A DNA stretch of 64,000 bases from a virus, in IMG/VR virus record IMGVR_UViG_3300044736_000016, positions 1 to 64,000 of that record, one strand, 5' to 3'. This document shows, piece after piece, positions 8,262 to 38,469 of this stretch; position 1 is the first letter of the stretch; each line of letters opens with the position of its first letter. The position numbers were made by a program, and so were the translations under genes. The notes beneath the pieces are model-generated. The model did no database searches and was not told where the DNA came from. It was given only the letters and a program-made list of their open reading frames with translations.

Positions 8262-8383
8262 GCTCCCTCCGTACCGGCGACGGCCGTACCGTCGTCTCTA
8301 TGATCGCGTTTGTCTCTCAGCGTGGAGATAGGCACGATCGTCCCGCCCACGGCCGCAGCGGGCAAGTGCGAGACGTCGGCCAT
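8258..8383 (-). CDS. 41-residue hypothetical protein
   Basis: Starts in a TGATG junction with the VirD4/TraG-like ATPase and ends in an ATGA junction with the next gene. The N-terminal half is hydrophobic (VSHLPAAAVGGTIVPIST), the rest charged. Coupling on both sides supports it. Confidence 0.5.
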   Translation of the reverse strand: MADVSHLPAAAVGGTIVPISTLRDKRDHRDDGTAVAGTEGA

Positions 8384-10152
8384 CAGGCGCCCTCCTGCTT
8401 GGCAACGTCTGCGGTTTCCGCGAACATGTCCGAGAACACCCCTGGTACGCCCGCATCTGTTTCGGTCGAACCCTGCTCGTGGATCTGGTCGAGCCCGTAC
8501 GGCACCGTGAGCTTTCCCCACATCTCGAACGGACGAGTGTCGCCATGGTAGACCGTCTTGGCAAGCGTGATCCGCTCGCTCATGCTGATAAGTACCTTGC
8601 CATCCGCGATGTTGGTGATCTCATGCTGCGGCCAACGCCATTCATCATGCGGCGTCACAGTGCGGGTGACCGTACGGGTGCGCCGCTGCTCCTTGTGCTG
8701 CGCATGGCGCTCGTGGCTGGCGTGGTCGTCGTCGACCGTCGGCTGCTGGCGCCACCACGGGGCACGGGTGCGGGCCACCGCCTTGGTCGTCCGGTGGATG
8801 GTGTGCTTGCCGCCGGTCCGCTCAAGGCTGGCGAGCAGCTTGGGATCCTTGCACCCGCGCAGCACAGCGGTGACCGCCATGCCCTCGCGGACCACCCTCT
8901 CGGTCTCCGCGTTCCACCGCAGGCTGAACTGTCCCATTGCCTGCACGGAGGCCATGAGCACGACCCCGCGTCCTCCCCCGTCGCCGATGATCCGCGTGAG
9001 AGACGGCAGGGGACTGAGCGTCGCCATCTCGTCCAGCGCAAGCAGGAACGGCCGCTCCAATGGCTGCCCACCCCGGCTGTCGGAGATGGTGTATGCCGCC
9101 TCCGTGATCTCCTCGATTAGCCCGGTGGTCAGCGGCGCCAGGTCGCAGTTCGGGTCCGAGGGGGCGACGACGAACAGCGCATGATCGCGGCCCAACTGCG
9201 GTCGGACGCTCGGGTCATGCTCGTCGTATCCGAGGAACTCGTACGGGTCGAAGCCGCACTCGCCAGCAAGGTTCGCATCCGCCAGGACCCGCGGGTTGTC
9301 GAACGCCGAGATGGCCGCGTCGAGGCAGGACCATACAGACCCCACCTCATCGCTCTCGCGCACCTTGGGGTCGCGCAGGGTCAGGCTGGCTAGGTTCTCG
9401 AGCGCCTGCCGGTCCGGGCAGAGATGTGGGTTCCCTTCCCACCGCGCGATCCTGGTCTTGAGGATGTCCGCTGGCTCGTCCACGTTGTGCTGCTTCACCC
9501 ATGAGCGGACGTGCCCCATGCCCTTGCCGTCCAGCGCAGCGGCGTACAGGAGCGGCGCAAGGTACTGCGTGGCCCGCGTCTGCCAGTGGCTCGGATCCTT
9601 GGCCCCTTTGCCGGCGTTGATGCCCATGGCTCGGGCGCGCTTGGTGGCAACGTAGAAGTCCTCGCAGCCTCGCAGCGGAGACCAGTGCAGGCGACGCACC
9701 CACGGCGGCACGTCGTCGGCTCCGAGGATCTGCATGGGGTCGAACACCCACACCTTGCCGCGGTAGGTGCGGACCGCCTTGCAGTGCTCAAGGATGTCCG
9801 GCTTGGTACTCGTGGCGACGACCGGTCCCAGCCACGCCTGCACGTTGGGGATGATCAGCGTGGCGGTCTTGCCTCGCTGCGAGATGGCGACGATCAGGAC
9901 GTGCTCACGCGGAGGAGCCTGCACGAACCGGCCCTTGTCCCAGCCTAGAATGGGGCGTCCGGGGATGATCCCGTGCCAGATCGGGTCAACGGGATCAAGG
10001 CAGTGTAGCCGGGGCGGACGGAGGCGCTGGCCATCGCGGAACACTGGGGAGGCGTGGTACTGAGCGAGGAGGCGCGGACCGTAGCGCATCTTGCCGTGCC
10101 AGCCAAGGCCACTCATCCCGGCGAGAGCGGCGACGATCTCGGGGAGGATCAC
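8383..10152 (-). CDS. VirD4/TraG-like coupling ATPase
   Basis: 589 residues related to type IV secretion coupling proteins, which pump DNA to a conjugation channel. HVLIVAISQRGKTATLIIPN (about 84-103) is the Walker A region, with the first Gly of the P-loop replaced by Ala; ATSTKPDILEHC follows as in TraG/VirD4; RPFLLALDEMATLSPLPSL is Walker B; ASVQAMGQF is the sensor region. Unlike VirD4 and TraG, no clear N-terminal membrane anchor is visible. No relaxase or VirB4 homologue is present in the window. It may move the phage genome during conjugal-type transfer, or work with the nearby membrane proteins as another translocase. It overlaps the gene upstream by ATGA. Confidence 0.8.
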   Translation of the reverse strand: MILPEIVAALAGMSGLGWHGKMRYGPRLLAQYHASPVFRDGQRLRPPRLHCLDPVDPIWHGIIPGRPILGWDKGRFVQAPPREHVLIVAISQRGKTATLIIPNVQAWLGPVVATSTKPDILEHCKAVRTYRGKVWVFDPMQILGADDVPPWVRRLHWSPLRGCEDFYVATKRARAMGINAGKGAKDPSHWQTRATQYLAPLLYAAALDGKGMGHVRSWVKQHNVDEPADILKTRIARWEGNPHLCPDRQALENLASLTLRDPKVRESDEVGSVWSCLDAAISAFDNPRVLADANLAGECGFDPYEFLGYDEHDPSVRPQLGRDHALFVVAPSDPNCDLAPLTTGLIEEITEAAYTISDSRGGQPLERPFLLALDEMATLSPLPSLTRIIGDGGGRGVVLMASVQAMGQFSLRWNAETERVVREGMAVTAVLRGCKDPKLLASLERTGGKHTIHRTTKAVARTRAPWWRQQPTVDDDHASHERHAQHKEQRRTRTVTRTVTPHDEWRWPQHEITNIADGKVLISMSERITLAKTVYHGDTRPFEMWGKLTVPYGLDQIHEQGSTETDAGVPGVFSDMFAETADVAKQEGA

Positions 10153-10922
10153 AGCGACCGCCCTCCGTAGGCGGGCTCGTTGACGGGCGTGTAGGCGGTC
10201 AGGTCGCGGGTCGTGGCGTCAGCTTGTGCGGCAGGCGTGGCTGTGCGTGACGCCTCGGCAGTGCTCAGGCTGTACACGTCGAGCGGCTTGGCTCCACCAC
10301 GCTCCAGCGTTTGCTTCAGGTTGGCAGGCACGCTCGGGCAGTAGGTATCGGTGCTGGCTTCCAGCTTCTCGCCGATAAGCCAGCCGTTCGCCGCAGCGTT
10401 GAGACCGAAGATGTCGCATGCATCCGGCATGTACTGCGGGTAGTCTGGTGGCGTGCCATCGGCCTTCGAGACCGCCTTCGACCACGCGATGCCTTCCCGC
10501 TCTGCGTCTTTGAAGTGCTCCGTCTTCCGGATGGCGTCCGCTGCGGGTGAGTGCGGATCGACCGTCCAGTTCGGTCCGCCGAAAAAGTGCAGTAGGCTGG
10601 GAGCGTCGCGGTGCAGGCCATCGGGCAGTGTGGCGGTGGCAGATGTCGACCTTTTTGCCTCGCTGCCGCCATAGTTCTGACGCAACTCTGCGATGCGTGC
10701 AGCCAGCCCGGCCTTGCAATGTGTCCTTGCCTCCTCGGGGCTCATCTCGCCGTGGTCGATCAGCGCTTTCTCATGTTGCTTCCACTGAGCCGTGACAATG
10801 GCCTTGGCATACACCCAGTCTGGGTCGGCCTCCTCAGTTGCGCTACCCGTGCTTCCGCCTCTAGGCGCGATGCTGGATCCGCCCGGGATAGGCTCTCCTG
10901 CGCCGATGTATGCGCTGGTCAT
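10149..10922 (-). CDS. Hypothetical protein of the coupling-ATPase operon
   Basis: 257 residues, unrecognised. Disordered N-terminus, helical DPDWVYAKAIVTAQWKQHEK, then a mixed region with GGPNWTVDPHSPAADAI. ATGA overlap with the ATPase gene suggests a partner or substrate adaptor for it. Confidence 0.65.
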   Translation of the reverse strand: MTSAYIGAGEPIPGGSSIAPRGGSTGSATEEADPDWVYAKAIVTAQWKQHEKALIDHGEMSPEEARTHCKAGLAARIAELRQNYGGSEAKRSTSATATLPDGLHRDAPSLLHFFGGPNWTVDPHSPAADAIRKTEHFKDAEREGIAWSKAVSKADGTPPDYPQYMPDACDIFGLNAAANGWLIGEKLEASTDTYCPSVPANLKQTLERGGAKPLDVYSLSTAEASRTATPAAQADATTRDLTAYTPVNEPAYGGRSL

Positions 10923-11152
10923 GTCACTCGCACCGTATAGATGCGCTGGCGGTCTTGGAATCCCCTCGCGATTTTGCGGTCCCGCTCCAACAGAACCAGT
11001 GCTCGGTACGTGCGCGCAGCAGGGATGCCGGTGGTGTAGGCGAGGATGTCGATGACGTAGATGTTGCCGCTGCGGATGGCTTGCAGTACGAGTTCGCAGT
11101 CACCCGTGGTCCGGCGTCGGCGGAACAGTCGGGAAAGAATCCCCATGTGCAT
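10919..11152 (-). CDS. Small winged-helix protein
   Basis: 77 residues. IYVIDILAYTTGIPAARTYRALVLLERDRKI reads as a winged helix (helix-turn-helix about 31-56, wing after it), as in PadR- or DprA-type domains. A basic N-terminus (RLFRRRR) could also bind DNA. Possible operon regulator. Confidence 0.6.
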   Translation of the reverse strand: MHMGILSRLFRRRRTTGDCELVLQAIRSGNIYVIDILAYTTGIPAARTYRALVLLERDRKIARGFQDRQRIYTVRVT

Positions 11153-11155
11153 CTC

Positions 11156-12127
11156 CTACAGTGACCGGCCGGGCTGGTGGGATGCGTCGACCTCGGCCTC
11201 GTCGCGAATTGGCTCGGCTGGCGCAGAGGGTCCGCCGATTGCCTCTCGCATGACCGAGGCCGGCACCCCGTTCGATTCCGCGCTGTTGGAACAGGTCGCG
11301 GTGGCCACCACCTTGCCCTGGTCAGGGTCTCCGGGGTTGGTTAGGACCATCGGCGAGCCTGACCAACCGGGCACGACGGGCTGATCGACCACGGTGGAGT
11401 GATAGGCATGGTCGGAGCCCTCAGGATGGACCATCTCCGTCCCCGTCACGTTCGCCGTGATGACGCCACGATCCGAGACGATCGCCACCTGATCGCCGGG
11501 TTGCGCATCGCGCGATGCCAGTTCGAGCGCGCCGTCTCCGTCGCTCTGCCGCCCGCTGACCACCGCAAAGTCGCTGTCCGGAGTAGACGCGATCGTCTGG
11601 TGCATCCAGTCGTCGCGGACGACGTGTCCCGCTGTCGCTCTGCCGGTGGTGCCGTCGGGCATGCGCAAGTCCCACGCCGTCCCTTCGCCCGGCATGCGTA
11701 CGCCGGCCGCGTAGATCCTGCCCGTGTGCGCCTCCGCGTTTCCGATCGGGGCGGTCGCTGCCACGCTGTCGTATCCGTGCCCAGCCGCGAAGGCGTCGTG
11801 CTCCGCTGCCTGCGGGGCCATACTCGCGGTGGTGGACTTCATGGTGGGCTGGCCCATGTCGCGCTCGAGCGAACGGGACGCGGACGCCGCAGACACATCG
11901 GCCTGAGCTGGTGCCGCACCTCGACGCGCTGCGGGTGCCGATGGTGGGTCGAGGTGATGGATAGGCACCCTGCCCTCGCGGAGCACGGAGACCGCTCGGA
12001 ACGCCCCGCTGTCGACGTGACGCTTCACCGTGCTGTCGAGGTGACGTGGGGCCACGCAGTGCCGGGACTGGCGACCGCTCTGGTCCTCCAGCACGACCAT
12101 GGCAGGTTGCTGCTGACGGCTGAACAT
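11156..12127 (-). CDS. Trypsin-fold serine protease
   Basis: 323 residues. The C-terminal half has a complete chymotrypsin-like triad: TAGHVV (His168), DSDFAVV (Asp186) and PGWSGSPM (Ser256, with Trp in place of the usual Asp before Ser). Residues 1-130 are Ser/Ala/Arg-rich and probably disordered. No signal peptide is evident. It lies 5 bases after the polyprotein gene, which ends in a second protease, so the pair may process the polyprotein or act at the envelope. Confidence 0.75.
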   Translation of the reverse strand: MFSRQQQPAMVVLEDQSGRQSRHCVAPRHLDSTVKRHVDSGAFRAVSVLREGRVPIHHLDPPSAPAARRGAAPAQADVSAASASRSLERDMGQPTMKSTTASMAPQAAEHDAFAAGHGYDSVAATAPIGNAEAHTGRIYAAGVRMPGEGTAWDLRMPDGTTGRATAGHVVRDDWMHQTIASTPDSDFAVVSGRQSDGDGALELASRDAQPGDQVAIVSDRGVITANVTGTEMVHPEGSDHAYHSTVVDQPVVPGWSGSPMVLTNPGDPDQGKVVATATCSNSAESNGVPASVMREAIGGPSAPAEPIRDEAEVDASHQPGRSL

Positions 12128-12132
12128 CGCTC

Positions 12133-15100
12133 CTATCCCATCCCGTGCGAGTTGCCGCCGATTTCGTGCGGCGGCGTGGTGTCTGTCTCTGCCGCGGAGT
12201 GATCCGGGGCGAGGTCTCTCGTCTCGGCCGTATCGCGCTCCGGCGTGCGGTCGGCCCTCGGCTCATCGTCACGCTTCGGCTCTGCGGGCTCCGGCGTGTG
12301 ATCTGCCTCCTGCTCATCGCGTCCCGGCTCGTTCTTGGCGGTGCGATCGGCCATCTCGGGCGCAGGCTCCGATTCTGGCGTGTCATCGGGCTCCGGGCGG
12401 GCTTCATTTGGCTGCTCGCGGTCCTGCTCCTCGGCAGCGTCAGGGCGCGACGGTCCATCAGTAGGCCGATCAGTAGCGCGCTCCTCCACGGCGTCATCCG
12501 CGGGATTGACGATCAGTTTGCGGTCTTGCGCCAAGTCTGCGAGTAGAGGCTGATCCGGGATTGCGTCTTCGGCAGTTGTCCGTGGATCCCCGACAGCGTG
12601 GAGAGCGTCATTGATGGGGACGGCGTTGGTGTCTGGAGCGTCCGGCGGATCGGTACCTGCGTCCACGACGCCTATAACTTGCCCGCGGTTATTCAGAAGC
12701 TGCCCGCCTGAATCCCCTGGATCAGATCGTGCGTCCACTTCGATGGTGTCAGCGACGTGGACAGGCTTCCCGGTGACATCATCTGGACTTGTGATTTCGT
12801 CCGCATGCGGGCTGGTCACGCGGCCGGTGTGGCTGTCGGTGCTGTGGCCGTAGTCGCCGACGATGCTCACAGGATCGCCAACCGCCACGTTTTTGGAGTC
12901 GCCGAGCACGGCCGGGTTCATTGGTGGTGCTCCCTCCACTTCCAACAGGTCAACATCGTGAGCCGTGTCGTCTCTAAGTACGAGTGTCTGATATTGATGG
13001 CTATCGACTTCCACGATCGTCGGCTGGTGCAGAGCAGCGGCATCCTCAACAACGTGGTGAGCGGTGAGTAACCGGTTGCCTGGCAGTACAATGCCTGTGC
13101 CCACGCCGTGGCCGGATGGATCGACGATGCGCGCGATGCCAGCATGGGTGGCGGTTGGCGCTGGTGAGATTGGTACTGGGGTATCGTGCAGAGTAGGTCC
13201 ACCGCTAGCCATCAGCGCTGCCGCGACAATGCCGACGCTGGGATGCGTCACCTGCCTATGCGCTGGCATTTCTTCTGCGCTGACGTGAGGTGTGTCGATC
13301 ATCTGCGGCACGGACCTTTCTGGTACTTCTACACTGATCGGCTTTGGCGACAAGCCAACCAGATCCGCGAGCCCATGTCGCTCCAGCACGTCGGGGTCAT
13401 GGGGTGGGCGCTCTGCTGGCTGCGCGTCGTCGACCGTGGGAGGTGGCGGTAGCTCGGCGTCTTCCGGTCGCCCAAGCCCACGTCTGCGCTCGGGTGGCAC
13501 GGCGTCCTCGGTCTCGTTCCCTGCGTCGATCGGAGCCCGTTCGGGCAGCCCACGCTCCCCCGCTCGAGTAAGCCCACGTCGGAGTTCGGGCGCTACGCCA
13601 TCCTGCTCTGCCGTGCGGCTCTGTCCGTACACAGGCTCAGGCAGATCGCCAGTGCCAGCCTGCCGCAGACCACGCTCGCGCTCTGGCGGTGTGGTGCGTG
13701 GACCCTGCCCGCCCAACCTCGTCCACGCCTCGTCCAAGTTGCGCTCGAAGGTCTCGCGGTCGACGGGCAGGCCACGCTCGCGTGCCTTGGCAGCCACTTG
13801 TGCCTGTGTGGCGTAGGCGTCGCTCCAACCCGGCGGTGTGGTCGTGCTGGCGGGCTCGGCATCACTTACCGCGCCGTCTCGCAGCCACGACGTGTCCGTC
13901 AGCGGGCTGGGGACGTTCTGCCGTGGGGCACTCGGGCTAGCCTGCTGCTCCCACATTGGCGCTGCGTCGCGGAGGCGTCCAGACTGCTCACGCTCGACCG
14001 GAGCGGCCTGCATCTCACGCAGTGCGGATGCGTCGGTGATCTGCTGGAGTAGGTCGGGCTCCTGCGACCCAGCGTGAAGCCGATGACGTTCTGCGGTCGG
14101 CAGGCCAGCGTGGCCGTTCCCTACCGCACCCGCCATGTCCACGATCTCTGCGGTGACGGGCCGGCCGTCCACACGCGTCACCACGGGCTGCGCTGCGTGC
14201 TCTGGTGTGGCTGTGATCCCACGGCGCTCGGCAGCGAATACGTCGTATCCATCCCGTCCCACAGCGTCGCGCACCGTTGATGTGGGCGGCGCATCGGTGA
14301 TGGCGGGACGTTCGGCGGACACGGTGCGGTCACGGTCCTGCGCATGTTCCTGCTCGGCTGCGGCCATCCGTGCCTCACGTTCCTGCCGCTCTGCCGGGGT
14401 ACGGAGTTCGTCGCGCGGATCCGGCACGACCTCACGGTGCGCTCGGTGCATGTCTGCCGCGGTGGTGCCGGGTGGAAGGCCGTTCAGGTCGTCAACCATC
14501 CACGCGTCGTTGATCGGGTCCGATCTACGCTGCTCGTCCATCCTCTGCGCGAACCGCTCTAGCCGATCGTTGCGTCCAACGTCCGGATCCACTACCGCTA
14601 TTTGCTCGGCGCTGTGGAGTTCTTTGCGCAGATCCATGTTGACACCGTTCCCCAGCGCAAGGTCGACATCGGAGTGGGACAGATGCGTGCCGAAGTCACT
14701 CTCGCGGTCGATGTCTGAGTAGTCACGTCGCCGTGCCGCTCCACTGTGCTGGATCACGGTCAGCCCTTCCGCCTCAGCCGCTTCACGGATGCGCTGTGCG
14801 GTCTCTGGAGTGGCGAACCCTTCCACCGCCGCGTTCTGGTGAAAGATGTCCCCGCCGTATCCGACGCTGTTGGCCATGCCCGGTTGAGAGCCGATGGTCG
14901 CGAACCCGGCGTGGTTCATGCGGACGAGCGGGTCTTTGATGAGCGCCGTCTCGGAGTCGGGATCGGGATGGCCGTTCGGATGTGCAAGATGACCGGGCAG
15001 GAATTGCTCTGCGGTGATCTTGCCGAGGTGGTTGATCGTCGTAGCGTCGCTCCAGTCGCGGATGACGCGCTGCTCGCGAGCGGGCCTTTCCGCAGCCAAC

Positions 15101-16629
15101 ACGTCCGGTACCGACTCCTTCACCAGCCCATGCTGCTTGGCGAGGACGGACGCGGCCGTGCCCTCTTCGTGGCCGTTGATCCTGTCGACTTGCCGTAGTT
15201 CCTCAAGCGAAGGCACTCCAATGACCTTGCCGTCCTTGTCGAGTGCGAGCGTGGAGGTGTTCGTCTCAACCCCACCGCGGAGGAATAGCGCGTTTTCTGC
15301 CACCCTGGCCGCGCGCTGAGCACGCGGAGAGGCGACGGACTGCGGCACGGCGGCTGCGTTGGCCACGGCCTCCTCGCGCTGTATGCCGTCGAGGGACCGT
15401 ATTCCTCGCTGGACCCGTTGCTCCTGGGCAGGCGTCAGGGGAACCACGCCAGCCGTGTCACGCTGCGGGGTCCGTGGCTTCCGTCCGCCGAGCACCGGCA
15501 CGCTGGAGCCGAGGGCGTCCGCGATGCTCGCCACGGACGGCATACGGCGTGGCTTGCTGGCGTGGCGCTGGCGGCCGTTGCTACCGCCGCCTCCACCGCC
15601 GTTTCGCGCTGCGCTGGCCGGTGGCTTGGCTGCGGCCCTGCTGCGTGCGTCCGGCGTGGCCGGTGGCTTCTCGCCGCATGCGCTGACCACCTTGCCGCCG
15701 ATTCCGGCGACGAACGACCCATGAGCGCCGACTTCGAGATCCCACAACTGCCGCTGCCGTACCGCCTTGCGCGCCTGCTGGTTGCCGAGCCACGAGTGGT
15801 GACCGCTGTGGCCGTGGCCTGCGTCCATGCGACGTGCCTGATACGTTGGACGGAACGGTGCGAACACGTGCTCGATATCGGTGCGCTCGCCGAGGGTCTC
15901 CGCAACGATGCCCATCATGGTCACCAGAAACGCAGAGGTGGTCGGAAGGGGTTTCCAGTCTGGGCCGTAGTAGCCCTTCAGCAGTGCACGGCGGTAACGT
16001 TCGTCCATCCCGAGACCCCATGGCGGGACCGTCTTGGTGTGAGGCTTGTCGCCGAAGTGCTCTGCCAGAAACCGTGCCTGCTCGCGGTCGCGCCCCTCGA
16101 AAGTGACGCCGCCGCCGCTCTTATCCTCGCGTCCCGTCCAACCTGAGAGATACTGGCGGATGTGCTGCGCCTCACGCTTATCCGAAGCCTTGATCGTGAT
16201 GCGATCGCCGTTGACTTCACCACTGCGTAGGTAGGAGCCGACGAGATGCCATTCCTCTGGCGTCTCCGGTGCACCAGCCGGGATCGGCAGCGGATCGATG
16301 TGAGTTGGTGTGGCCCACGCGTGGCGCCGCTTGTCGAACAGGCCCGCGCTCATCCATCCGGGTGTCCCGCCGTTCGATGTGGCCCGCACCAGCACGGGGT
16401 GGCCGTCCGACGCCTCAATCCCAGCATGCCCATGCCCAGACACCCGCACCGTCGAACCCTTGCGCCGATGGACGTTCGTGACAGGCTGCCAACTGCCGTT
16501 GCGATCGAGCACGCGGTGGCTCTGGCTGACGTCCTGCATGTGCATGATCCGCTCGTCTGTGATGACGGGCGTCTTGCCGGGAAACCCCTCGGGCGGACGG
16601 CGCGGCGGCTTGGAAATCTGCGTGGGCAT
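12133..16629 (-). CDS. Giant polyprotein: degenerate intein, DUF6919-like region, trypsin-like protease
   Basis: 1,498 residues. 1: residues about 15-320 resemble an intein: an N3-like HRVLDRNGSWQPVTNV, block B EASDGHPVLV, LAGLIDADG-like LVGSYLRSG and ALLKGYYGP, and block F LWDLEVGAHGSFVAG. The nucleophile Cys1 and the C-terminal His-Asn are lost (VVSAC at the end), and the endonuclease acidic residues are gone, so it should neither splice nor cut. 2: about 560-640 holds MNHAGFATIGSQPGMAN, resembling actinobacterial DUF6919. 3: long charged, repeat-rich linkers. 4: about 1165-1330 is an HtrA/trypsin-like protease: LLTAHHVV (His about 1189), DVDLLEVEG (Asp about 1226), DPGDSGGQLL (Ser about 1305). 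5: a Glu/Asp/Arg-rich tail. ATG 16629 is chosen because upstream codons are non-coding in character and a small membrane gene ends at 16635. Possible roles: virion protein injected with DNA, or conjugation surface protein. Confidence 0.75.
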   Translation of the reverse strand: MPTQISKPPRRPPEGFPGKTPVITDERIMHMQDVSQSHRVLDRNGSWQPVTNVHRRKGSTVRVSGHGHAGIEASDGHPVLVRATSNGGTPGWMSAGLFDKRRHAWATPTHIDPLPIPAGAPETPEEWHLVGSYLRSGEVNGDRITIKASDKREAQHIRQYLSGWTGREDKSGGGVTFEGRDREQARFLAEHFGDKPHTKTVPPWGLGMDERYRRALLKGYYGPDWKPLPTTSAFLVTMMGIVAETLGERTDIEHVFAPFRPTYQARRMDAGHGHSGHHSWLGNQQARKAVRQRQLWDLEVGAHGSFVAGIGGKVVSACGEKPPATPDARSRAAAKPPASAARNGGGGGGSNGRQRHASKPRRMPSVASIADALGSSVPVLGGRKPRTPQRDTAGVVPLTPAQEQRVQRGIRSLDGIQREEAVANAAAVPQSVASPRAQRAARVAENALFLRGGVETNTSTLALDKDGKVIGVPSLEELRQVDRINGHEEGTAASVLAKQHGLVKESVPDVLAAERPAREQRVIRDWSDATTINHLGKITAEQFLPGHLAHPNGHPDPDSETALIKDPLVRMNHAGFATIGSQPGMANSVGYGGDIFHQNAAVEGFATPETAQRIREAAEAEGLTVIQHSGAARRRDYSDIDRESDFGTHLSHSDVDLALGNGVNMDLRKELHSAEQIAVVDPDVGRNDRLERFAQRMDEQRRSDPINDAWMVDDLNGLPPGTTAADMHRAHREVVPDPRDELRTPAERQEREARMAAAEQEHAQDRDRTVSAERPAITDAPPTSTVRDAVGRDGYDVFAAERRGITATPEHAAQPVVTRVDGRPVTAEIVDMAGAVGNGHAGLPTAERHRLHAGSQEPDLLQQITDASALREMQAAPVEREQSGRLRDAAPMWEQQASPSAPRQNVPSPLTDTSWLRDGAVSDAEPASTTTPPGWSDAYATQAQVAAKARERGLPVDRETFERNLDEAWTRLGGQGPRTTPPERERGLRQAGTGDLPEPVYGQSRTAEQDGVAPELRRGLTRAGERGLPERAPIDAGNETEDAVPPERRRGLGRPEDAELPPPPTVDDAQPAERPPHDPDVLERHGLADLVGLSPKPISVEVPERSVPQMIDTPHVSAEEMPAHRQVTHPSVGIVAAALMASGGPTLHDTPVPISPAPTATHAGIARIVDPSGHGVGTGIVLPGNRLLTAHHVVEDAAALHQPTIVEVDSHQYQTLVLRDDTAHDVDLLEVEGAPPMNPAVLGDSKNVAVGDPVSIVGDYGHSTDSHTGRVTSPHADEITSPDDVTGKPVHVADTIEVDARSDPGDSGGQLLNNRGQVIGVVDAGTDPPDAPDTNAVPINDALHAVGDPRTTAEDAIPDQPLLADLAQDRKLIVNPADDAVEERATDRPTDGPSRPDAAEEQDREQPNEARPEPDDTPESEPAPEMADRTAKNEPGRDEQEADHTPEPAEPKRDDEPRADRTPERDTAETRDLAPDHSAAETDTTPPHEIGGNSHGMG

Positions 16630-16634
16630 TTTGG

Positions 16635-16814
16635 TTATCCCAGACGTGCGTGGCTGCCGGGCATGTAGGCGTAGATGCACATGACGCCGATGAGTGCGCC
16701 GATGATGCCGCCTACCACCCTGACCACGACTTTCTGTCTGAACCCCGTGATGGCGAGCCTGATGCCCATGAACACCGCGACTCCACCGACGAGACAGATG
16801 GCTATGCCCAGCAT
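16635..16814 (-). CDS. Small membrane protein, two TM segments
   Basis: 59 residues: MLGIAICLVGGVAVFMGIRL forms TM1 and VVGGIIGALIGVMCIYAYM forms TM2, with a short basic loop between. It sits 2 bases after a similar small membrane gene. Size and topology resemble VirB2/TrbC pilin-like or VirB3-like subunits, but sequence alone does not prove this. Confidence 0.65.
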   Translation of the reverse strand: MLGIAICLVGGVAVFMGIRLAITGFRQKVVVRVVGGIIGALIGVMCIYAYMPGSHARLG

Positions 16815-16816
16815 CC

Positions 16817-29839: not shown

Positions 29840-29923
29840 ATCCGCAGAGGGACGGCGCTGGCGGCGCCGGTAATGCGCATCCCGAGTCCCAAGTCTCGGG
29901 GAAGCCACAAGGAGTAACGACCG

Positions 29924-30208
29924 ATGAGCAAGGCAACAGACAAGGCTCGAGCGGCGCTGGATGCTGACATGGACCGCTGGCGTGCTGATGCGAGGGAGCG
30001 GGCAGGGGTGCGGCTGGGGATCATTCGTAGCGCACTGTCCATGCTGCAGCAGGTTGCGCCAAGGCTGGTCAAGGACCGCCATCTTGATGGGGATGCTGGC
30101 GACATGGCCATGGCGACCATGCTGGAATCGTCCGGCGTCATGATCGACACGGACGAACTGCTGGAGATCATCGCGTTGGCCGCCAGGCAGTTCGAGTTGC
30201 CGAGATGA
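29924..30208 (+). CDS. Hypothetical helical protein
   Basis: 94 residues, fully helical (KATDKARAALDADMDRWRAD and on). AAGGAG about 8 bases before ATG. Overlaps the DUF262 gene by ATGA, so the two may work together. Confidence 0.65.
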   Translation: MSKATDKARAALDADMDRWRADARERAGVRLGIIRSALSMLQQVAPRLVKDRHLDGDAGDMAMATMLESSGVMIDTDELLEIIALAARQFELPR

Positions 30209-30756
30209 CCACCACGACCCGCGGGCTGCCGAAGGTCCACCCGCAGATGTACTCCTACCCAGTCGACCACTACCGGATGCTGGCGTCCCAGCCCGGCCGC
30301 CTCGACCTCAACCCTCCATACCAGCGTGGCTCGGTGTGGGGCACGGAGCGCAAGCGCAACCTCATCAAGTCGCTGCTCATGGGCCTGCCGATCGGCGCGG
30401 TGTTCCTCAACTCGCGGGACATCATGCAGCCGGATCGGGTGGTGGACGGCAAGCAGCGCATCGAGGCCATCCTCGACTTCCTTGGCGATCGGCTCGCGGT
30501 GCCCGCCGTATGGTTCTCCGAGGACGATCTGACTGAGGCGACAGCAGGGCAGTGGGGCAGCGGGAACCTTACCACGGACATGGTGTCGTACTCCGATCTG
30601 ACCCTTCCCGTGCAGCGTCGGTTCAACGATTCCACCGTCGCCACATACCAGACCAAGCTCCGCACCGAGGCCGAGGAGCGCGAACTGTTCCTGCTCATCA
30701 ACTACGGCGGGGTGGCGCAGGGCGATATGGACGCCGATGCGGGGGACGGGCGATGA
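30205..30756 (+). CDS. DUF262 (ParB/GmrSD-fold) protein
   Basis: 183 residues. LDLNPPYQRGSVWGTERKRN, IKSLLMGLPIGAVFLN and VVDGKQRIEAILDFL are the DUF262 signature (P.YQR..VW...LI.S...G.PI, DGQQR). The family has a ParB-like NTPase/nuclease fold and includes the GmrS-like part of type IV restriction enzymes. Here it stands alone without the DUF1524 HNH half, so cleavage is uncertain; roles in anti-defence, defence or partition are possible. Confidence 0.8.
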   Translation: MTTTTRGLPKVHPQMYSYPVDHYRMLASQPGRLDLNPPYQRGSVWGTERKRNLIKSLLMGLPIGAVFLNSRDIMQPDRVVDGKQRIEAILDFLGDRLAVPAVWFSEDDLTEATAGQWGSGNLTTDMVSYSDLTLPVQRRFNDSTVATYQTKLRTEAEERELFLLINYGGVAQGDMDADAGDGR

Positions 30757-31398: not shown

Positions 31399-33519
31399 CT
31401 ATCCAGCCCTCCGCTGACCCTTCCAGTGCCTGATCAGGCGGCCCATCTCGGACTCGCTCACGTAGGCACCCTGCATCCGGCGCGTCTCGCCGTCGTCGTT
31501 CAGCCTGCAGAGCATGTCCCCACGGCCCGCCAGTTTCTCCGCTCCCATCTCATCGAGAATGACCCGCGAGTTCACCCCGCTCGAGACCCGGAAGGCGATG
31601 CGGCTGGGGAAGTTCGCCGTGATGTCTGCTGGGATGAGTTCCGCCGAGGGTCGCTGGGTTGCCGCGACAAGGTGGATCCCGGCCGCCCTGGCAAGCTGAG
31701 CCAGCCGCTGCAGGGCCTCCTCCACGTCATCCTTCGCCCGGAGCACAAGGTCGGCAAGCTCGTCGATCACCACCACGATGCGGGGCAGGGGCTCGGCCCT
31801 AGTGTTGTGCTGGGCGATGTTCTTTGACCCACTGCCGGCGAGGATTCGGTACCGCTTGTCCATCTCGTCGACCACCTCGCGGAGCGCCTCAACCGCCTCG
31901 TCAGCGTCGTTGACGATGGGCCGTAGCAGATGGGGGATGCCAGCGTACCCCTCCAACTCGACCACCTTGGGGTCGATGAGCACGATCCGTAGTTGATCCG
32001 GGGTGGACTGCAACAGGAGCGAGGCGAGCAGGACGTTGATGTACACGGACTTGCCGGAGTTCGTCGCCCCGCCGATCAGCAGATGCGGGGTGGTCGTCAG
32101 GTCGCCGACCGCGGACTGCCCGGAGAGGTCTGCGCCGAGGGCGATGGCCAGCCCGGTGCGGGCCACGATGCGGAAGGCCGGGGCCTGCACGAGGGACCGC
32201 AGGGTGACCAGCTGGGCGGACTTGTTCGGCACCTCGATGCCCACGGCGGCCTTGCCGGGGATCGGCGCCTGGATCCGGATGGTGGCCGCAAGGGCGAGGG
32301 ACAGGTCGGTCTGCCGCGTGGTGATGCGCCTGACCGACACGCCGGGGGCAGGCTGTAGGACGTACTGCGTGACCCGCGGGCTGGGGTTGACCTCGATCAC
32401 CCGACCCATGACGCCGAAGGATTCCAGCGTGGATTCGATCAGCGAGCGGGTGTTGGCGATCTCCGCTTCCTGCCGAACGCGGTCAGTCTTGCCCTCGTCT
32501 AGAAGGTCGATGGGCGGCAGGAGCCACTCTGAGTGCCCCGTCTCCAAATCTGGCAAGACCATGAGCGCGGTCTGTCCGGAGTCGCCAGCTGGATACTGCC
32601 CGTCATCCGTGGCGGGTTTTGGAGACTCCGATGGGCGCGGAGGGTTCGCCATGGCCTCTCGCATCGGGCCGGCCAGCCACGGCACGCCCTGCCAGTTGCG
32701 TCCAGCCTGAGCGGGAGCGTGCGTCTCGTCCTCCGCAGGCTCCTCCGTGTCGCCGCTCTCCTCGCCACGGATCCATCCCCACAGTCGCTCAGACCGTAGC
32801 CCACGCCGCATCCCGTCGCGCATCGCACCGGCCACCACCGGCACATCAAGGTCCACGGCTAGCACCAGGCCGAGGCACGTCAGGCCGACGAACAGCACCA
32901 CCGACCACCACGGCCCGACCCAGCCAGCTGCCGAATCCGCCAGCGAACCTCCGACCGACCCTGCCCCGCCCCGCGTCCACGGCACCAACGCGGTCAGCCC
33001 GAGCAGCCCCGGGATAGCGATGCCCACCCCCGCAGCCGAGGCGTGACCGTGCCCCAGCAGCAACCGAACTCCGACCAGCAGCAGACCGGCCACGAGCAGA
33101 GCATCCCCGACCACCCCCAGCCAGTCCGTGAGCATCGAGCCCTGCGGGATGAGCAGGAGCGGGATGGAGAGCAGCGCCGCGATGAGCGCCCCGACGCCGT
33201 GCAGGTTGCGCCGCTGGTCGTGGGTGACCTTGGGCGCCTTGGCGGTACGCCTTGCCGGTCGTCTGGTCCGGGTCGCCATCACGCCTCCTGCGGGAAGGTC
33301 GGGGAACTTGCGGCCGTGCTCTTTCTCATGGCACGGACGGCAGAGCACCATGAGGTTCGCACGCCTGCAGTCGTTCGGTCTGCGGTTCTTGTGGTGAGCC
33401 TGTAGCGCCCGATCCGTCTTGCACCGCTTGCATCTCTGGCCTCGGCGGAACTCGCGGCTGAGGTCGGGCCAGCACTCCGGGTAGTCGGTGCCGGGGTAGA
33501 CGCGGAACGTGGTAGCCAC
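31399..33519 (-). CDS. ftsK: HNH domain fused to FtsK/SpoIIIE DNA translocase
   Basis: 706 residues. Residues about 30-68 are an HNH/zinc domain (CKRCKTDRALQAHHKNRR, MVLCRPCHEKEH). Residues about 100-215 hold four TM helices. Residues about 350-700 are an FtsK motor: Walker A GGATNSGKSVY (about 480-490), Walker B VVVIDELADL (about 585), then LAATQRPS and FPSRIAFRV. No gamma DNA-binding domain is visible. ATG 33279, behind AGGAGG, starts an FtsK product without the HNH. Related one-protein pumps (TraB) drive conjugation of Streptomyces elements, so this is a strong candidate for DNA transfer or segregation. Confidence 0.88.
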   Translation of the reverse strand: MATTFRVYPGTDYPECWPDLSREFRRGQRCKRCKTDRALQAHHKNRRPNDCRRANLMVLCRPCHEKEHGRKFPDLPAGGVMATRTRRPARRTAKAPKVTHDQRRNLHGVGALIAALLSIPLLLIPQGSMLTDWLGVVGDALLVAGLLLVGVRLLLGHGHASAAGVGIAIPGLLGLTALVPWTRGGAGSVGGSLADSAAGWVGPWWSVVLFVGLTCLGLVLAVDLDVPVVAGAMRDGMRRGLRSERLWGWIRGEESGDTEEPAEDETHAPAQAGRNWQGVPWLAGPMREAMANPPRPSESPKPATDDGQYPAGDSGQTALMVLPDLETGHSEWLLPPIDLLDEGKTDRVRQEAEIANTRSLIESTLESFGVMGRVIEVNPSPRVTQYVLQPAPGVSVRRITTRQTDLSLALAATIRIQAPIPGKAAVGIEVPNKSAQLVTLRSLVQAPAFRIVARTGLAIALGADLSGQSAVGDLTTTPHLLIGGATNSGKSVYINVLLASLLLQSTPDQLRIVLIDPKVVELEGYAGIPHLLRPIVNDADEAVEALREVVDEMDKRYRILAGSGSKNIAQHNTRAEPLPRIVVVIDELADLVLRAKDDVEEALQRLAQLARAAGIHLVAATQRPSAELIPADITANFPSRIAFRVSSGVNSRVILDEMGAEKLAGRGDMLCRLNDDGETRRMQGAYVSESEMGRLIRHWKGQRRAG

Positions 33520-34062: not shown

Positions 34063-34460
34063 CTATCCTCAGGTGCCAGCGCGGATCCGGTCGGCCGCTC
34101 GTACTCGTCGGCCAGCAGCGTGGTCAGAGCGTCGATGGCAGGGACTAGACCACTCGGCGGCGGGAGGTATCCGAGTGCCAGCCGCTTCTCACGTTCCTTC
34201 CGTGCCGCTCGCATCTCGGGATTGGACCACACGCGATTCACGGCCTCAGCGGCGTCGAGAAGGCCATCACGCTGACGCCGCAACTCGCCCACAGTCCGCG
34301 CCGCTGCGTCCGCCTCTGCCTCCATCGCCGTGAGCCTAGCCTCCAACTCCGCGACCAGTTCCATCAGCCGTGCGTTTTCTGCCATCCCCGCCACGGTCCG
34401 ATCATGGACGATGTTGGACTGCTCGGCCATGTCGGCGGCGATCTCGTTGAGGTCACGCAT
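34059..34460 (-). CDS. Coiled-coil protein
   Basis: 133 residues. A coiled coil spans about 25-80 (LMELVAELEARLTAMEAEAD). ATG 34460 gives an 8-base overlap with the previous gene, as at the next two junctions. Confidence 0.6.
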   Translation of the reverse strand: MRDLNEIAADMAEQSNIVHDRTVAGMAENARLMELVAELEARLTAMEAEADAAARTVGELRRQRDGLLDAAEAVNRVWSNPEMRAARKEREKRLALGYLPPPSGLVPAIDALTTLLADEYERPTGSALAPEDR

Positions 34461-34788
34461 CGCCCATTTCCGCAAGGGTAGTGTCGACGTCGTCCACGAG
34501 TTTGGTGATCGACTTCGCCCAGTCGTCGGTCGGCGGGGCCACTTCGGTGTACCCACTGAGCACCAGCGCGGCCTCGCGTAATAGCGCTCGCCATCCCGCC
34601 TCCCGCTGCAGGATGTACCGAGCCAGTACCCGGTCGTACTCCTTCGTGTGCTCCTGGAGGGCTGCGTAGTCGTCAGGGTGACGGACCGCGTCGTCCCCTA
34701 CGCCAGCCTGCCGCCTCGCCTCGTCCTGATAGATGGCGTGAATCTTGGCGCTCAGCCTCTCCACGGCCTCGGGGTCGAAGTCAGCCAT
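34453..34788 (-). CDS. Hypothetical helical protein
   Basis: 111 residues, helical and acidic (PEAVERLSAKIHAIYQDEAR; WAKSITKLVDDVDTTLAEMG). Eight-base overlaps at both ends. Unrecognised. Confidence 0.55.
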   Translation of the reverse strand: MADFDPEAVERLSAKIHAIYQDEARRQAGVGDDAVRHPDDYAALQEHTKEYDRVLARYILQREAGWRALLREAALVLSGYTEVAPPTDDWAKSITKLVDDVDTTLAEMGDA

Positions 34789-35077
34789 CGCCGAATGCCT
34801 CCGCTGTCTTCTCTGTGGTGGTTGGTGGCGGCGTCCAGCCTTGGGCGACCAACTCGTGCACCAGATCGTCGTGGATGTCGTGTTTTCCAATAGCCCGGAT
34901 GCGTCCGTTGGCCTCTCCGGTGTAACTGGTGATCGCCACCCAGCGACGGGAAAAGGGCTGAAGGCGGATGAGGATGGGGTGCTGGCGATGACAGCCTGCC
35001 TCGTTGCAGCAGCGGTTCCGAGGCTGCGGCGCTCTCATCGGGTGAGCCTCGTGGAGCCGTTCGGTCTCCTCAGCCAT
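34781..35077 (-). CDS. Hypothetical Cys/His-containing protein
   Basis: 98 residues with NRCCNEAGCHRQHP, a compact Cys/His cluster, followed by a small beta domain (RRWVAITSYTGEANGRIRAI). Unrecognised. Confidence 0.55.
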   Translation of the reverse strand: MAEETERLHEAHPMRAPQPRNRCCNEAGCHRQHPILIRLQPFSRRWVAITSYTGEANGRIRAIGKHDIHDDLVHELVAQGWTPPPTTTEKTAEAFGDG

Positions 35078-35456
35078 GGTCTAACGCCTCCACGAGCCGA
35101 TCTAGTGCAGCCTTGCAATCGCGCAGGTTCTGGCCCTGTTTCATGGTGATGTAGCAGAGCCCGAAGTCCTCGGCGCGTCCACTCCACAGCCGTGCTACCT
35201 CTCGCGCCGCGGTGATGGCTGCTACCTCCTGCTGTGCCTTGGGCCTCCAGTCCTCGCGAAGCTGGGCTATCACCGCACGGAGACGCGTGATCTCGGCCTC
35301 CAACTCCGCGATCTGGGCCAGCCTCTCTCGTTCGATCGCCATGCACCATTGGTCGGAGTGCTCACGTACACCATGGCAAGTGTCATCGCCAGTACCGGTT
35401 GGCAGTAGTGGGCGGCATCCGTCGCAGTGAATGCTCCTAGTCGGCTCGTCGGTCAT
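35070..35456 (-). CDS. Coiled-coil protein with zinc-binding N-terminus
   Basis: 128 residues: IHCDGCRPLL, DDTCHGVREHSDQWC, then a coiled coil (LAQIAELEAEITRLRAVIAQ). ATG 35456 has GAGGAGGAGG just upstream, so it is the first gene of the operon that leads into the HNH-FtsK gene. Confidence 0.65.
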   Translation of the reverse strand: MTDEPTRSIHCDGCRPLLPTGTGDDTCHGVREHSDQWCMAIERERLAQIAELEAEITRLRAVIAQLREDWRPKAQQEVAAITAAREVARLWSGRAEDFGLCYITMKQGQNLRDCKAALDRLVEALDHG

Positions 35457-35498
35457 CGGTCCTCCTCCTCTGGTCGGCAACGAAGATGTGACGTGGTG

Positions 35499-35527
35499 TT
35501 GCATGTAAGGCAGGTTACGCGTATACT
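35499..35527 (+). promoter_or_regulatory. Leaderless promoter with operator
   Basis: TTGCAT (35499-35504), 17-base spacer, TATACT (35522-35527), then 6 bases to ATG 35534. GTAAGGCAGGTTAC (35505-35518) is a small inverted repeat inside the spacer. Confidence 0.65.
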
Positions 35528-35533
35528 ACTGGC

Positions 35534-35731
35534 ATGGACACCACGCCACGGAGCACCGAGATGATCCTCTTCGAGTACACCTGCGCCGACTGCACTCGCG
35601 GCGGTAGGGGCTGGGTCACGGTGGATGCCCTTGTCGATCACTTCCAGAACGATCATGCGGATCTCTGGACCCCCGAGACCATCGCAGCCGAGGTCGCCGA
35701 GCAGACCGCCATGAAGGAGGCCGTCGCATGA
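35534..35731 (+). CDS. C2H2-type zinc-finger protein, leaderless mRNA
   Basis: 65 residues: EYTCADCTRGGRGWVTVDAL then VDHFQNDHADLW, a CxxC...HxxxxH finger. Acidic helical tail. Paralogous in layout to the next gene. ATGA overlap downstream. Confidence 0.65.
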   Translation: MDTTPRSTEMILFEYTCADCTRGGRGWVTVDALVDHFQNDHADLWTPETIAAEVAEQTAMKEAVA

Positions 35732-36015
35732 GCGTCAACCGCCCCGATCCGCCCGCCAACCCCAACCCGCACTATCTGTGCGTCTACTGCGAGAGTCTGT
35801 TCGATATCCCCGTCGACCTCTGGGTGCACAGCCTTGCTGAGCATGCAGCAGAGTGGACCGACCTTGCCGAACTCGCCGAGGAGATCGCTGACCAAGGGCG
35901 AGAGTACACATGGGCCGAGGAGATAGATCGTCGCGGTGCCATCCTGCACGCAATCCGCCTGCACTACGGTCACATCCCCGACGCGAGCGTCGTGCTCGCC
36001 GATTGGCCTCGCTGA
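35728..36015 (+). CDS. C2H2-type zinc-finger protein
   Basis: 95 residues: YLCVYCESLFDIPVDLWVHS then LAEHAAEW, the same CxxC...HxxxxH finger as its neighbour, followed by an acidic helix (LAELAEEIADQGREYTWAEE). The pair may have arisen by duplication. Confidence 0.65.
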   Translation: MSVNRPDPPANPNPHYLCVYCESLFDIPVDLWVHSLAEHAAEWTDLAELAEEIADQGREYTWAEEIDRRGAILHAIRLHYGHIPDASVVLADWPR

Positions 36016-36219
36016 ATGCCCCGCCCGCGCACCCGCCAAACCGTCATCGCGCTCTACGGCCCCGGCCTCAAACTGTGCCCTGTGTGCGGGCTCTACTTCG
36101 CCCCACCGCCTGCCGAGCCCGGTCATCGTCGCCGTTGGGCTGACCGTACGTACTGCTCCGCTGGCTGCCGGACGTCCGCTGCCCGGACTCGCAAGAACGC
36201 TGAGGCTGAGGCTGGCTGA
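36016..36219 (+). CDS. Treble-clef-like zinc protein
   Basis: 67 residues: LCPVCGLYFAPPPAEPGHRR then TYCSAGCRTSAARTRKN. The CxxC...CSxxCR pattern also occurs in the genes at 58697 and 61469. Starts directly after the previous stop. Confidence 0.6.
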   Translation: MPRPRTRQTVIALYGPGLKLCPVCGLYFAPPPAEPGHRRRWADRTYCSAGCRTSAARTRKNAEAEAG

Positions 36220-36246
36220 CCGCGTCACTCCGTCTCCTCCTCGGCG

Positions 36247-36267
36247 CAGTATCCAGTCTGGAGACTG
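36247..36267. repeat. Palindrome at convergent gene ends (CAGTATCC family)
   Basis: CAGTATCCAG and CTGGAGACTG face each other around one T, with a single mismatch, between the plus stop at 36219 and the minus stop at 36272. Possible two-way terminator. Confidence 0.6.
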
Positions 36268-36271
36268 ACGC

Positions 36272-36805
36272 TCACGACGCCTCATCCACGTCGCGATCAG
36301 CCTCGCAGTCTCCGACAGGTGCTGGCGGCACAACCGAAGGCGACGGCAGGGTTGCCTGTCTGATGATCGCCATCACCGTCTCGGTGGCCTCCGCGTACTT
36401 GGAGCCGCGGCTGCGGTTCACCCCGTACACCTGCTCCACGATGAACGGCACGGTGGCTCCGCTGTGGACTAGTTCGATGACCTGCCGATTGACGCTCTCC
36501 GCGATCTCAGGGGCGATCACGGTATTGGTGTCGTGCAGCATCCGAACCTCCGGCCTGCGTAGTGGCTCATTCATGGCCGATGGAGTGATGTCCGTGCCCC
36601 AGTCGAACCCGAAGCTAGCCATCGGCGGAGCCGCCAGATACGCGATGAGTCTGCGCATCGTATCCGGCTCGTCGCGAACGAAGCCAAGGGCACAGTTGCA
36701 GGCATTGCAGATCAGTCCACGTATCTTCCCAGTTTCGTGGTCGTGGTCTACGACCAGTTTCCGGTACTGGGTGCATCCGATGCAGGTGCCGAAGACATTG
36801 CTCAT
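36272..36805 (-). CDS. Recombination endonuclease VII with extra C-terminal module
   Basis: 177 residues. TCIGCTQYRKLVVDHDHETG followed by GLICNACNCALGFVRDEP is the zinc-binding, catalytic core of the T4 endonuclease VII family, which resolves branched DNA before packaging. A second domain (about 105-155: SGATVPFIVEQVYGVNRSRG, then AEATETVMAIIRQA) matches the C-terminus of the ATPase encoded by the next gene upstream, with which it overlaps by ATGA. Confidence 0.85.
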   Translation of the reverse strand: MSNVFGTCIGCTQYRKLVVDHDHETGKIRGLICNACNCALGFVRDEPDTMRRLIAYLAAPPMASFGFDWGTDITPSAMNEPLRRPEVRMLHDTNTVIAPEIAESVNRQVIELVHSGATVPFIVEQVYGVNRSRGSKYAEATETVMAIIRQATLPSPSVVPPAPVGDCEADRDVDEAS

Positions 36806-38469
36806 AGGTCATCCTCTCTCGGTTCGTCTTCCATCGGCAGAATGGTCAGCGCAGGCACCGCCTCAGCGCTCGGCGGACGAGGGATCGCACTACGGATCAC
36901 CTCGCTCACCTCGGCGCACGCCGTCACGTATGGTCGCCCGCCCCCCGGCTTGATCCCGTAGATGTCGAGCACGATCTCGGGGACGAGAGACCCTCCGAGG
37001 AACAGTTCCATCACCCGACCCTCCAACACGCGCGCGCGCGAGGGCTCCTCTGTTCCGTATTCGGATGGGGTCGGTCCGGAACAGATCGCGAGCGGCTGGG
37101 AACGGCTCGGGAACAGGGCGGGAACAGTCTGCGGAACAGGCCCGACCGTCAGCCGTGGGCCGTTCGAGGCCAGCATCCGACCCGCCAGAGCGATGGCCTC
37201 GTCGTCCACGCGAGGCACCCAGAGCCGATGCGTTTCGCCCGTCGTCGGTATCACGTAGCACTCGCCTTGGGCCAGCCGCAGGGTGTCGTTCGGCACGCCG
37301 GGAACGAGCATCCGCGCCTCGTCTGGACGCATGCGGTGGATGAAGGCGGCGGCGAGTTGGTTGCGGAACGGGCCGGATTCCCGCTTGCTCCACGTCTGCG
37401 AGATGAACAGCCCGTTGACCATCACCTTGCGTCCCTCGCGGGTGATCGTTCCGGCGTGCTCCGCGATCTCTCCGGTGGTGTCCTCGCCGATGACGCGCCT
37501 CCACTCGTCCACGATTGTGAGCTCGGGCTGACCGTCTTCGATGCCGAGCTTGATGCGCCGCTCGATCTCCTCCACGGTCTCGCGCATGGCGAGCAGGATG
37601 TCCTCGTGGTCGAGGGCGATCGGTCGGATGAACGCGGCCTCGAGCGGGCGAAGGCGACCCGTCAGGCTTTTGGCGCTGATCCGTCCGTGGCCGTCGCAGA
37701 GGCGCAGGCCGGTGCCGATCAGGGCGGCTTGGATGCACAGCCATTCCGCGTCGCGAGACTTGCCAGAGCCCTGATGCCCACCCATCCCGGCCGAGTAGAG
37801 ACCAGCGAACATGTCGCCATCCTCGGTCGGCTCGGAGCGGACTAGGGAACTCGTCGCGGGATCCCAGCCGAGGGCGAGGAGTTGGCCGGGGCCGACCTCG
37901 CGGCGCCGGATGAGTTCGGTCAGCGTCGGCACCTTGACGTCGGCGGGGTTGGTGATGACCACCTCGGGCTCAGCGACGGGGCTGGCGATTCGGCGAGAAT
38001 CGTGGACCGCGTAGTGCTGTAGGCCAGCAGGCAGGGCTGGATTCGTCGCTAGCAGGTTGCGGGTCTGCATGGCGCCAGAGTTGATGGCGATTCGCAGTTC
38101 TGGCGTCAGCCCCTGATACGCCACCGCCCCGGTGAGCCTGTCCGGCATGTCACGCTTGCGCCAGAAGTGCCACCCGAGCGCAGCCGGAGATCCGACCGCT
38201 CCCACGAACACCGCAAACAGCACGCCGTCCTCTACCAACCGCAGCCACGTCGTCGGCCGGTCGAAGTGCCACTCGCTGTCTAGCTTGGCGTTTACGGCGT
38301 CGATCTTGGCCTGCCGTTGCTCTTGGCTGAGCCGAAGGTCGGTCTCGATGCGAACCTGCTCTTGTGTCGGGCCGGGGGTGGTGATCGCAGACCAGCAGAA
38401 GCCAATGCCGCATGCGCAGAACCCGGCAGCTGCGAGAGAACCGGCCCAGCGGACGTGCGAGTGGCTCAC
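36802..38469 (-). CDS. FtsK/HerA-like membrane ATPase
   Basis: 555 residues. Two TM helices (about 7-30 and 78-100) precede a P-loop motor: GMGGHQGSGKSRDAEW (about 225-240) is Walker A, LTIVDEWRR (about 320) Walker B, GLFISQTWSKRE the sensor region. The last 90 residues hold the module shared with the endonuclease gene (LVPEIVLDIYGIKPGGGRPY). GTG 38469 is chosen because it overlaps the previous stop (GTGA) and directly precedes TM1. Such proteins are typical of actinobacterial plasmids and integrative elements; DNA transfer is the likely role. Confidence 0.8.
   Translation of the reverse strand: MSHSHVRWAGSLAAAGFCACGIGFCWSAITTPGPTQEQVRIETDLRLSQEQRQAKIDAVNAKLDSEWHFDRPTTWLRLVEDGVLFAVFVGAVGSPAALGWHFWRKRDMPDRLTGAVAYQGLTPELRIAINSGAMQTRNLLATNPALPAGLQHYAVHDSRRIASPVAEPEVVITNPADVKVPTLTELIRRREVGPGQLLALGWDPATSSLVRSEPTEDGDMFAGLYSAGMGGHQGSGKSRDAEWLCIQAALIGTGLRLCDGHGRISAKSLTGRLRPLEAAFIRPIALDHEDILLAMRETVEEIERRIKLGIEDGQPELTIVDEWRRVIGEDTTGEIAEHAGTITREGRKVMVNGLFISQTWSKRESGPFRNQLAAAFIHRMRPDEARMLVPGVPNDTLRLAQGECYVIPTTGETHRLWVPRVDDEAIALAGRMLASNGPRLTVGPVPQTVPALFPSRSQPLAICSGPTPSEYGTEEPSRARVLEGRVMELFLGGSLVPEIVLDIYGIKPGGGRPYVTACAEVSEVIRSAIPRPPSAEAVPALTILPMEDEPREDDL

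Follow-up and report, generated by a model that had tools for sequence, protein, structure and literature searches.

The 64,000-bp window analysed here is bases 1-64000 of the 109,768-base virus record IMGVR_UViG_3300044736_000016 of IMG/VR, the remainder of which was also examined. It belongs to a tailed temperate phage and encodes three ATPases on its minus strand: a homolog of the VirD4/TraG type IV coupling proteins (T4CPs; 8383-10152, 589 aa), an HNH-FtsK fusion (31399-33519, 706 aa) and a membrane-anchored ATPase that probably belongs to the HerA/FtsK superfamily (36802-38469, 555 aa). Judging from its sequence and modelled fold, the first is a true coupling-protein homolog that has lost the N-terminal membrane domain, and no other part of a type IV secretion system (T4SS) was found with it. 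We tentatively propose (rough probability 0.45) that the three ATPases would be three separate tools in the infected cell, not one conjugation apparatus, with 8383-10152 soluble and docked at the membrane. A preliminary description of this DNA had taken them for three conjugation-type pumps, each beside small membrane-protein genes and accompanied by phage terminase, portal and Prim-Pol, in an element that may spread both as virions and from cell to cell. All three ATPases and the phage genes are indeed present; only 8383-10152 is of conjugation type, the FtsK being of the cell-division type and the third ATPase probably HerA-like.

The protein encoded by 8383-10152 matched the Pfam families T4SS-DNA_transf (1.7e-13) and TraG-D_C (1.8e-11). 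It matched TrwB at 0.008 as a single sequence (phmmer) and at 3.8e-13 as a family profile, and a Foldseek search with its AlphaFold model returned Cagbeta (1.3e-15) and TrwB (7e-13). Walker A and Walker B of the nucleotide-binding domain were intact, and the T4CP fold with its all-alpha domain was recovered in the model (helices 166-300), which is of moderate quality. The catalytic residues G94, K95, D374, E375 and Q404 were invariant across 33 homologs, and the ratio of nonsynonymous to synonymous substitution rates (dN/dS) between relatives was 0.18, indicating purifying selection. The invariant residues and the selection together suggested that the protein is an active enzyme.

The count of hydrophobic segments used a plain sliding window in place of a dedicated membrane predictor. 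By this count, two hydrophobic helices preceded the ATPase in 76 of 89 homologs, and the median position of Walker A was 181. In 8383-10152, Walker A lies at residue 91 and no hydrophobic segment stands ahead of it; the same was true of the protein of a sister phage, G001 (IMGVR_UViG_3300044734_000006, 79 kb). The N-terminal transmembrane domain (TMD), which defines the VirD4 type and is lacking in the TMD-less class of coupling proteins, was therefore not found in 8383-10152.

Plasmid homologs were present on 309 records, mostly from actinobacterial genera; among those sampled, several lay near a MobF relaxase and one adjoined a full T4SS cluster. The phage protein belongs to the same family as the VirD4/TraG T4CPs of actinobacterial plasmids and integrative and conjugative elements (ICEs), with an ATPase core, an all-alpha domain and about 25-31% identity to host coupling proteins, but the two membrane helices at their N terminus are absent from it, and neither T4SS genes nor a relaxase was found in its neighbourhood. 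When the phage coupling protein was used as the only query, about 85,000 genomes of bacteria and archaea yielded no close relative. Widening the search of these genomes to the family gave 490 distant relatives, and the top 80 were retained; eight coupling proteins, once aligned, proved too divergent for the alignment to serve as the seed of a scan. Among named phages, we found no close relatives of either the coupling-protein homolog or the third ATPase.

We searched both phages (the window phage and G001) with profiles built from the T4SS of an Iamia plasmid and from actinobacterial loci. The coupling protein alone matched (5.7e-111). The SCO6880, VirB4-like ATPase, DUF6112 and MobF profiles had no match in either phage, and the VirB6 profile, made from a single sequence, gave only one chance-level match. 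Among about 90 bacterial coupling-protein loci, SCO6880 was present in 55 and a VirB4-like ATPase in 66. Pfam scans of most called genes detected no relaxase and no VirB4, and the TrwC and Relaxase searches of the genome were empty while their positive controls matched; the Replic_Relax search carries no weight, as its control gave no match. Neither other mating-channel genes nor a TraB-type FtsK translocase was found. As far as such sequence searches reach, the complete genome yielded no homolog of a relaxase, VirB4, VirB6, SCO6880 or DUF6112; oriT, the origin of transfer, was not searched for. The preliminary description had advised looking through the whole genome for relaxase, VirB4 and tail genes, and of these only tail genes turned up. 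The suggestion that the phage also spreads by mating is not supported: the searches of the complete genome turned up none of the further parts that mating needs, and the one coupling protein present has no membrane domain.

The second ATPase, 31399-33519, matched FtsK_SpoIIIE (6.4e-51) and FtsK_alpha (2.2e-28), and carried four hydrophobic segments as an N-terminal membrane domain and an HNH domain at residues 1-78. FtsK_gamma had no match in the protein, which ends just past the motor. Among known structures, FtsK (2e-90) came far ahead of conjugative TcpA (6.6e-24). Likewise, NCBIfam gave FtsK at 2.6e-86 and plasmid TraB at 1.9e-13, far below the TraB cut-off. The match to AAA_10 was sub-threshold only, and SspH, Mad8 and HerA were matched in PADLOC through the shared motor alone. 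By these comparisons, the protein is an FtsK of the cell-division type, not of the conjugative TraB type. Its dN/dS between relatives was 0.09; the HNH part had a value of 0.16 against a related contig (L007), and because this part is itself conserved, the long HNH-FtsK reading frame is probably real. The protein has many relatives in named phages. The FtsK of cluster J mycobacteriophages (Omega gp203, LittleE) is likewise an FtsK motor of unclear role in an actinophage of about 110 kb, but it has no membrane domain, whereas the window FtsK keeps one, has HNH fused in front and lacks a gamma match.

The third ATPase, 36802-38469, had no match in the Pfam, PHROG, PADLOC or NCBIfam libraries as a single sequence. 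Its sequence shows a P-loop and an hhhDE motif, with two membrane helices at the N terminus, and a profile of its five-member family (the window phage, G001 and three further contigs) matched the HerA-type DNA helicase 9x1l at 3.5e-4 over residues 293-410. The dN/dS between relatives was 0.23, so that all three ATPase genes show purifying selection. A search of 297 Actinomycetota genomes for the third ATPase returned one weak match. Its gene overlaps by 4 bases that of a recombination endonuclease VII (36272-36805, minus strand; PF02945, 1.7e-17). The last 54 residues of this endonuclease were 63% identical to the C terminus of the ATPase variant in another related contig, L005; the third ATPase and the adjacent nuclease have a C-terminal domain in common. 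The P-loop, the motor motifs and a nuclease in the same operon resemble what is seen in HerA/FtsK superfamily ATPases such as 9x1l, to which the phage protein is a candidate relative; it differs from them in its two membrane helices, its endonuclease VII partner and its strong divergence.

On the other side, the ATPase gene is overlapped by the gene of a two-helix membrane protein (38466-38762, minus strand; 51-100% identical in four other phages), followed by that of a small conserved protein (38759-38992, minus strand; 67-97% identical in four other phages), and these two were co-encoded with the ATPase in all five phages. Between the window phage and G001, the motor part of the ATPase was only 36% identical and the N-terminal part 62%, against 98-99% for the neighbouring FtsK. 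On these identities, the third ATPase is a case of allele replacement within a conserved operon.

The coupling-protein gene lies in a minus-strand operon whose gene order is the same in G001 and the window phage. Its start overlaps the end of a gene for a 257-aa protein (10149-10922), which has a diverged relative in G001 (39% identity over the C-terminal half). Upstream lie a 75-aa protein (10919-11146), 96% conserved in G001 and by eye possibly DNA-binding, and a trypsin-fold protein (11156-12127), recognized by a weak PHROG protease match and by its alignment with the product of the next gene. That product (12133-16629) is a 1498-aa protein with a Hint/intein-like N terminus (by eye), DUF6919 (1.5e-20) and an HtrA/trypsin domain (Trypsin_2, 7.8e-17); the HtrA-like domain is missing from its G001 counterpart. 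Viewed by eye, the N terminus looks like a degenerate intein/Hint domain, with Cys1 replaced and a C-terminal motif ending in SAC, and the protease has a GDSGG motif. Two tiny genes follow, for proteins of 59 aa (16635-16814) and 61 aa (16817-17002), each with two predicted membrane helices and each a candidate membrane partner of the T4CP; at the equivalent places G001 has two-helix open reading frames of 59 and 68 aa, with no sequence similarity to them. Small membrane-protein genes had been reported beside each of the three ATPases. This holds for the third ATPase; those of the VirD4-like gene lie about 6.5 kb upstream in the same operon, and none adjoins the FtsK. Downstream of the coupling-protein gene, 7505-7930 (minus strand, 141 aa) resembles by eye a RusA Holliday-junction resolvase, with no library match.

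In our proposal, the 8383-10152 protein would be a soluble ATPase, which probably forms hexamers as its relatives do, and the phage two-helix proteins 16635-17002 would dock it at the membrane. The docking is proposed because TMD-less coupling proteins, an established class, are known to pair with small membrane proteins (PMC7434980). In pIP501 TraJ with TraI, as in the phage, the core has no membrane domain and small membrane proteins are encoded nearby (PMC7434980); unlike pIP501, the phage encodes no detected T4SS, and the pairing is a candidate drawn by analogy. The tiny two-helix genes keep their place in G001 despite unrelated sequence, which speaks for docking. Once docked, the ATPase might act on a substrate from its own operon, either a phage protein or DNA, by moving or positioning it. 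The HNH-FtsK may act on phage DNA at the membrane, as is presumed for the cluster J FtsK, and the HerA-like ATPase and endonuclease VII could form a membrane-anchored DNA-processing pair. The strong allele swapping of this ATPase between sister phages would fit exclusion of, or competition with, other DNA.

Several observations weigh against this proposal. The two-helix genes are separated from the T4CP gene by the distance given above, and their partnership with the ATPase is argued from the TMD-less class. The AlphaFold model of 8383-10152 is moderate, with a mean pLDDT (the per-residue confidence score) of 67, and that of the third ATPase failed (pLDDT 35) and was unusable. Beside the third ATPase, endonuclease VII is encoded only in the window phage and L005; G001 and L007 lack it there. 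The genome might also code for a relaxase from a family not yet described.

An unlikely alternative, though the best placed of those weighed here, is that the phage uses the protein as a weapon against conjugation: the TMD-less homolog would tie up in dead complexes the T4SS or relaxosome that resident plasmids or ICEs encode, block their transfer and so protect the lysogen from competing elements. In its favour, homologous T4SS loci are common in actinobacterial genomes and plasmids, fertility inhibition is known to act on coupling proteins (PMC5696584), and a chimeric one has a dominant-negative effect (PMC7431656). What the phage protein is missing, moreover, is precisely the membrane domain on which coupling proteins usually depend. 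However, a passive decoy would need neither strictly kept catalytic residues nor a low dN/dS, the decoy idea does not account for the other genes of the operon, such as the two-helix and protease-like ones, and mixed hexamers are unlikely at 25-31% identity to host coupling proteins.

It is considerably less probable that the homolog makes the phage mobilizable by delivering its DNA to a T4SS that a plasmid or ICE in the same cell provides; the phage would then spread by virions and by mating alike. The coupling-protein homology is true, such hosts often carry a T4SS, and both a circular form and an integrase exist; yet no relaxase was found in the complete genome, while sampled plasmid homologs often adjoin MobF, and 8383-10152 is without the membrane domain that was essential in the VirD4-type proteins tested (PMC7434980).

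An equally poor candidate is a role in packaging or ejection, in which one or more of the ATPases would stand in for the terminase, help it or be a virion component. In some other groups of viruses, DNA is packaged by FtsK/HerA ATPases, the terminase of this phage is split into two genes, and the FtsK weakly matched a PHROG labelled terminase. Nevertheless, the phage has an intact terminase ATPase domain, and all three ATPases belong to leftward operons, on the strand opposite to the head and tail genes and away from them; a packaging motor as the main role was rejected, since the terminase ATPase is present. The preliminary description had foreseen that the three might prove to be packaging or defence proteins. 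Packaging is covered by a normal terminase, and a PADLOC search for known defence systems matched neither the coupling-protein homolog nor the third ATPase. Least probable of all, and largely refuted by purifying selection, is that the gene is decaying cargo from a captured piece of a conjugative element: its partners were not found and its membrane domain is missing, but its dN/dS of 0.18, invariant catalytic residues, full-length frame and operon order kept in two phages contradict decay.

Gene content identifies the virus as a genuine tailed temperate phage (Caudoviricetes), with 177 genes called across the whole record. Both record ends share 127 identical bases, and the G001 record reads across the junction, with the integrase on one side and the left end of the window on the other; because of these two features, the genome is complete and circular, of about 109.6 kb. 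G001 carries the coupling-protein gene at 93% identity, the FtsK at 98-99%, a variant third ATPase at 38% and the capsid gene at 100%, in the same order as the window phage. This order, together with the closure spanned by G001, ruled out a chimeric contig, which had been named as a way in which the preliminary description could fail.

The ATPase domain of the terminase large subunit is a separate gene (42832-43659, plus strand; Terminase_6N, 3.3e-13; PHROG terminase, 1.3e-44), and the probable nuclease half (44246-45094, plus strand) was assigned by position and by RNase H-like motifs seen by eye, its PHROG being of unknown function. The two-gene terminase is common to L005 and a further relative, L006; a 308-bp stretch (43660-43967) that separates the two genes in the window is missing from these otherwise very similar contigs. 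The portal protein (45565-47460, plus strand) matched Portal_Mu (6e-32) and a PHROG portal (8.2e-52), and the major capsid protein matched phrog_1005 (8e-73), with relatives in Microbacterium and Arthrobacter phages among others and two distant matches in 397 genomes. Tail proteins and a tyrosine integrase were identified, and a head-protease match was weak. A DnaB-type replicative helicase (3679-4704, plus strand; PF03796, 4.3e-53) and a Prim-Pol primase/polymerase (4708-5577, plus strand; PF09250, 3.1e-40) are the replication genes. The host is probably an actinobacterium.

Other features of the window were recorded. A Twister-P5 self-cleaving ribozyme (Rfam RF02684, 49.6 bits) lies at 29843-29898 on the plus strand, in a stretch conserved in L007. 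The 183-aa product of 30205-30756 (plus strand) resembles the defence proteins NsnA (1.7e-21) and PD-T4-2_A in PADLOC, and its G001 copy is 96% identical. Small genes within 425-42825, 52 of which were scanned together, gave one match each to GmrSD_N, a YdaS toxin and the ribosomal L7/L12 C-terminal domain. The structural-gene region 50166-54294 includes a glycosyltransferase and a nucleotide-sugar epimerase, possibly for glycan modification.

Coupling-protein relatives in phages are rare but not new. A scan of viral sequences found one more clear case, G007 (IMGVR_UViG_3300036801_000174, 73 kb), an unrelated phage that has portal and terminase genes and encodes a coupling-protein homolog, with another membrane ATPase two genes further along. 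On a tree whose long branches call for caution, the G007 coupling protein grouped with T4CPs of Streptomyces plasmids, apart from the window protein, and it is likely to represent a separate capture. An IS605 OrfB/TnpB-type gene with a Cas12f1-like TNB domain lies near the G007 coupling-protein gene (L114:8808-10055). Predicted viral structures were also searched, and the proteins retrieved were a conjugal transfer protein of Siphoviridae sp. ctHip2, gp156 of Bacillus phage G and a TraG/VirD4 fragment of an uncultured phage. Bacillus phage G carries an adjacent pair of T4SS-type ATPases, gp155 being VirB4-like (5e-13) and gp156 T4CP-like by modelled fold; its genome is unrelated to that of the window phage and no sequence similarity between them was found. 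Two further viral contigs with coupling proteins (L028 and L029) were set aside, as they look like ICE sequence: located at contig ends, their proteins branch within the host coupling proteins. In the literature covered, which mostly excluded subscription journals, we found no paper that describes coupling proteins encoded by phages.

Since separate phages carry such ATPases (the unrelated G007 and the Bacillus phage G pair), T4SS-type ATPases appear to have entered phages more than once. Because three unrelated phages (the window phage, G007 and Bacillus phage G) carry versions of the pair, it is conceivable, if doubtful, that phages repeatedly domesticated the ATPase core of the T4SS, namely a coupling-protein homolog, a second VirB4/HerA-like ATPase and small two-helix membrane proteins, as a translocation machine of their own, free of relaxase and mating channel.

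Coupling proteins are usually seen as the business end of conjugation, and a TraG/VirD4 match in a viral contig is in itself no evidence of conjugation. The chief interest lies in a TMD-less coupling-protein homolog kept by selection in an operon owned by the phage, and in the recurrence of such ATPases, often paired, across unrelated phages. If this reading is true, a selected phage coupling protein without detected mating machinery, together with an unrelated phage's own copy, would point to a second life of the coupling-protein family in viruses.

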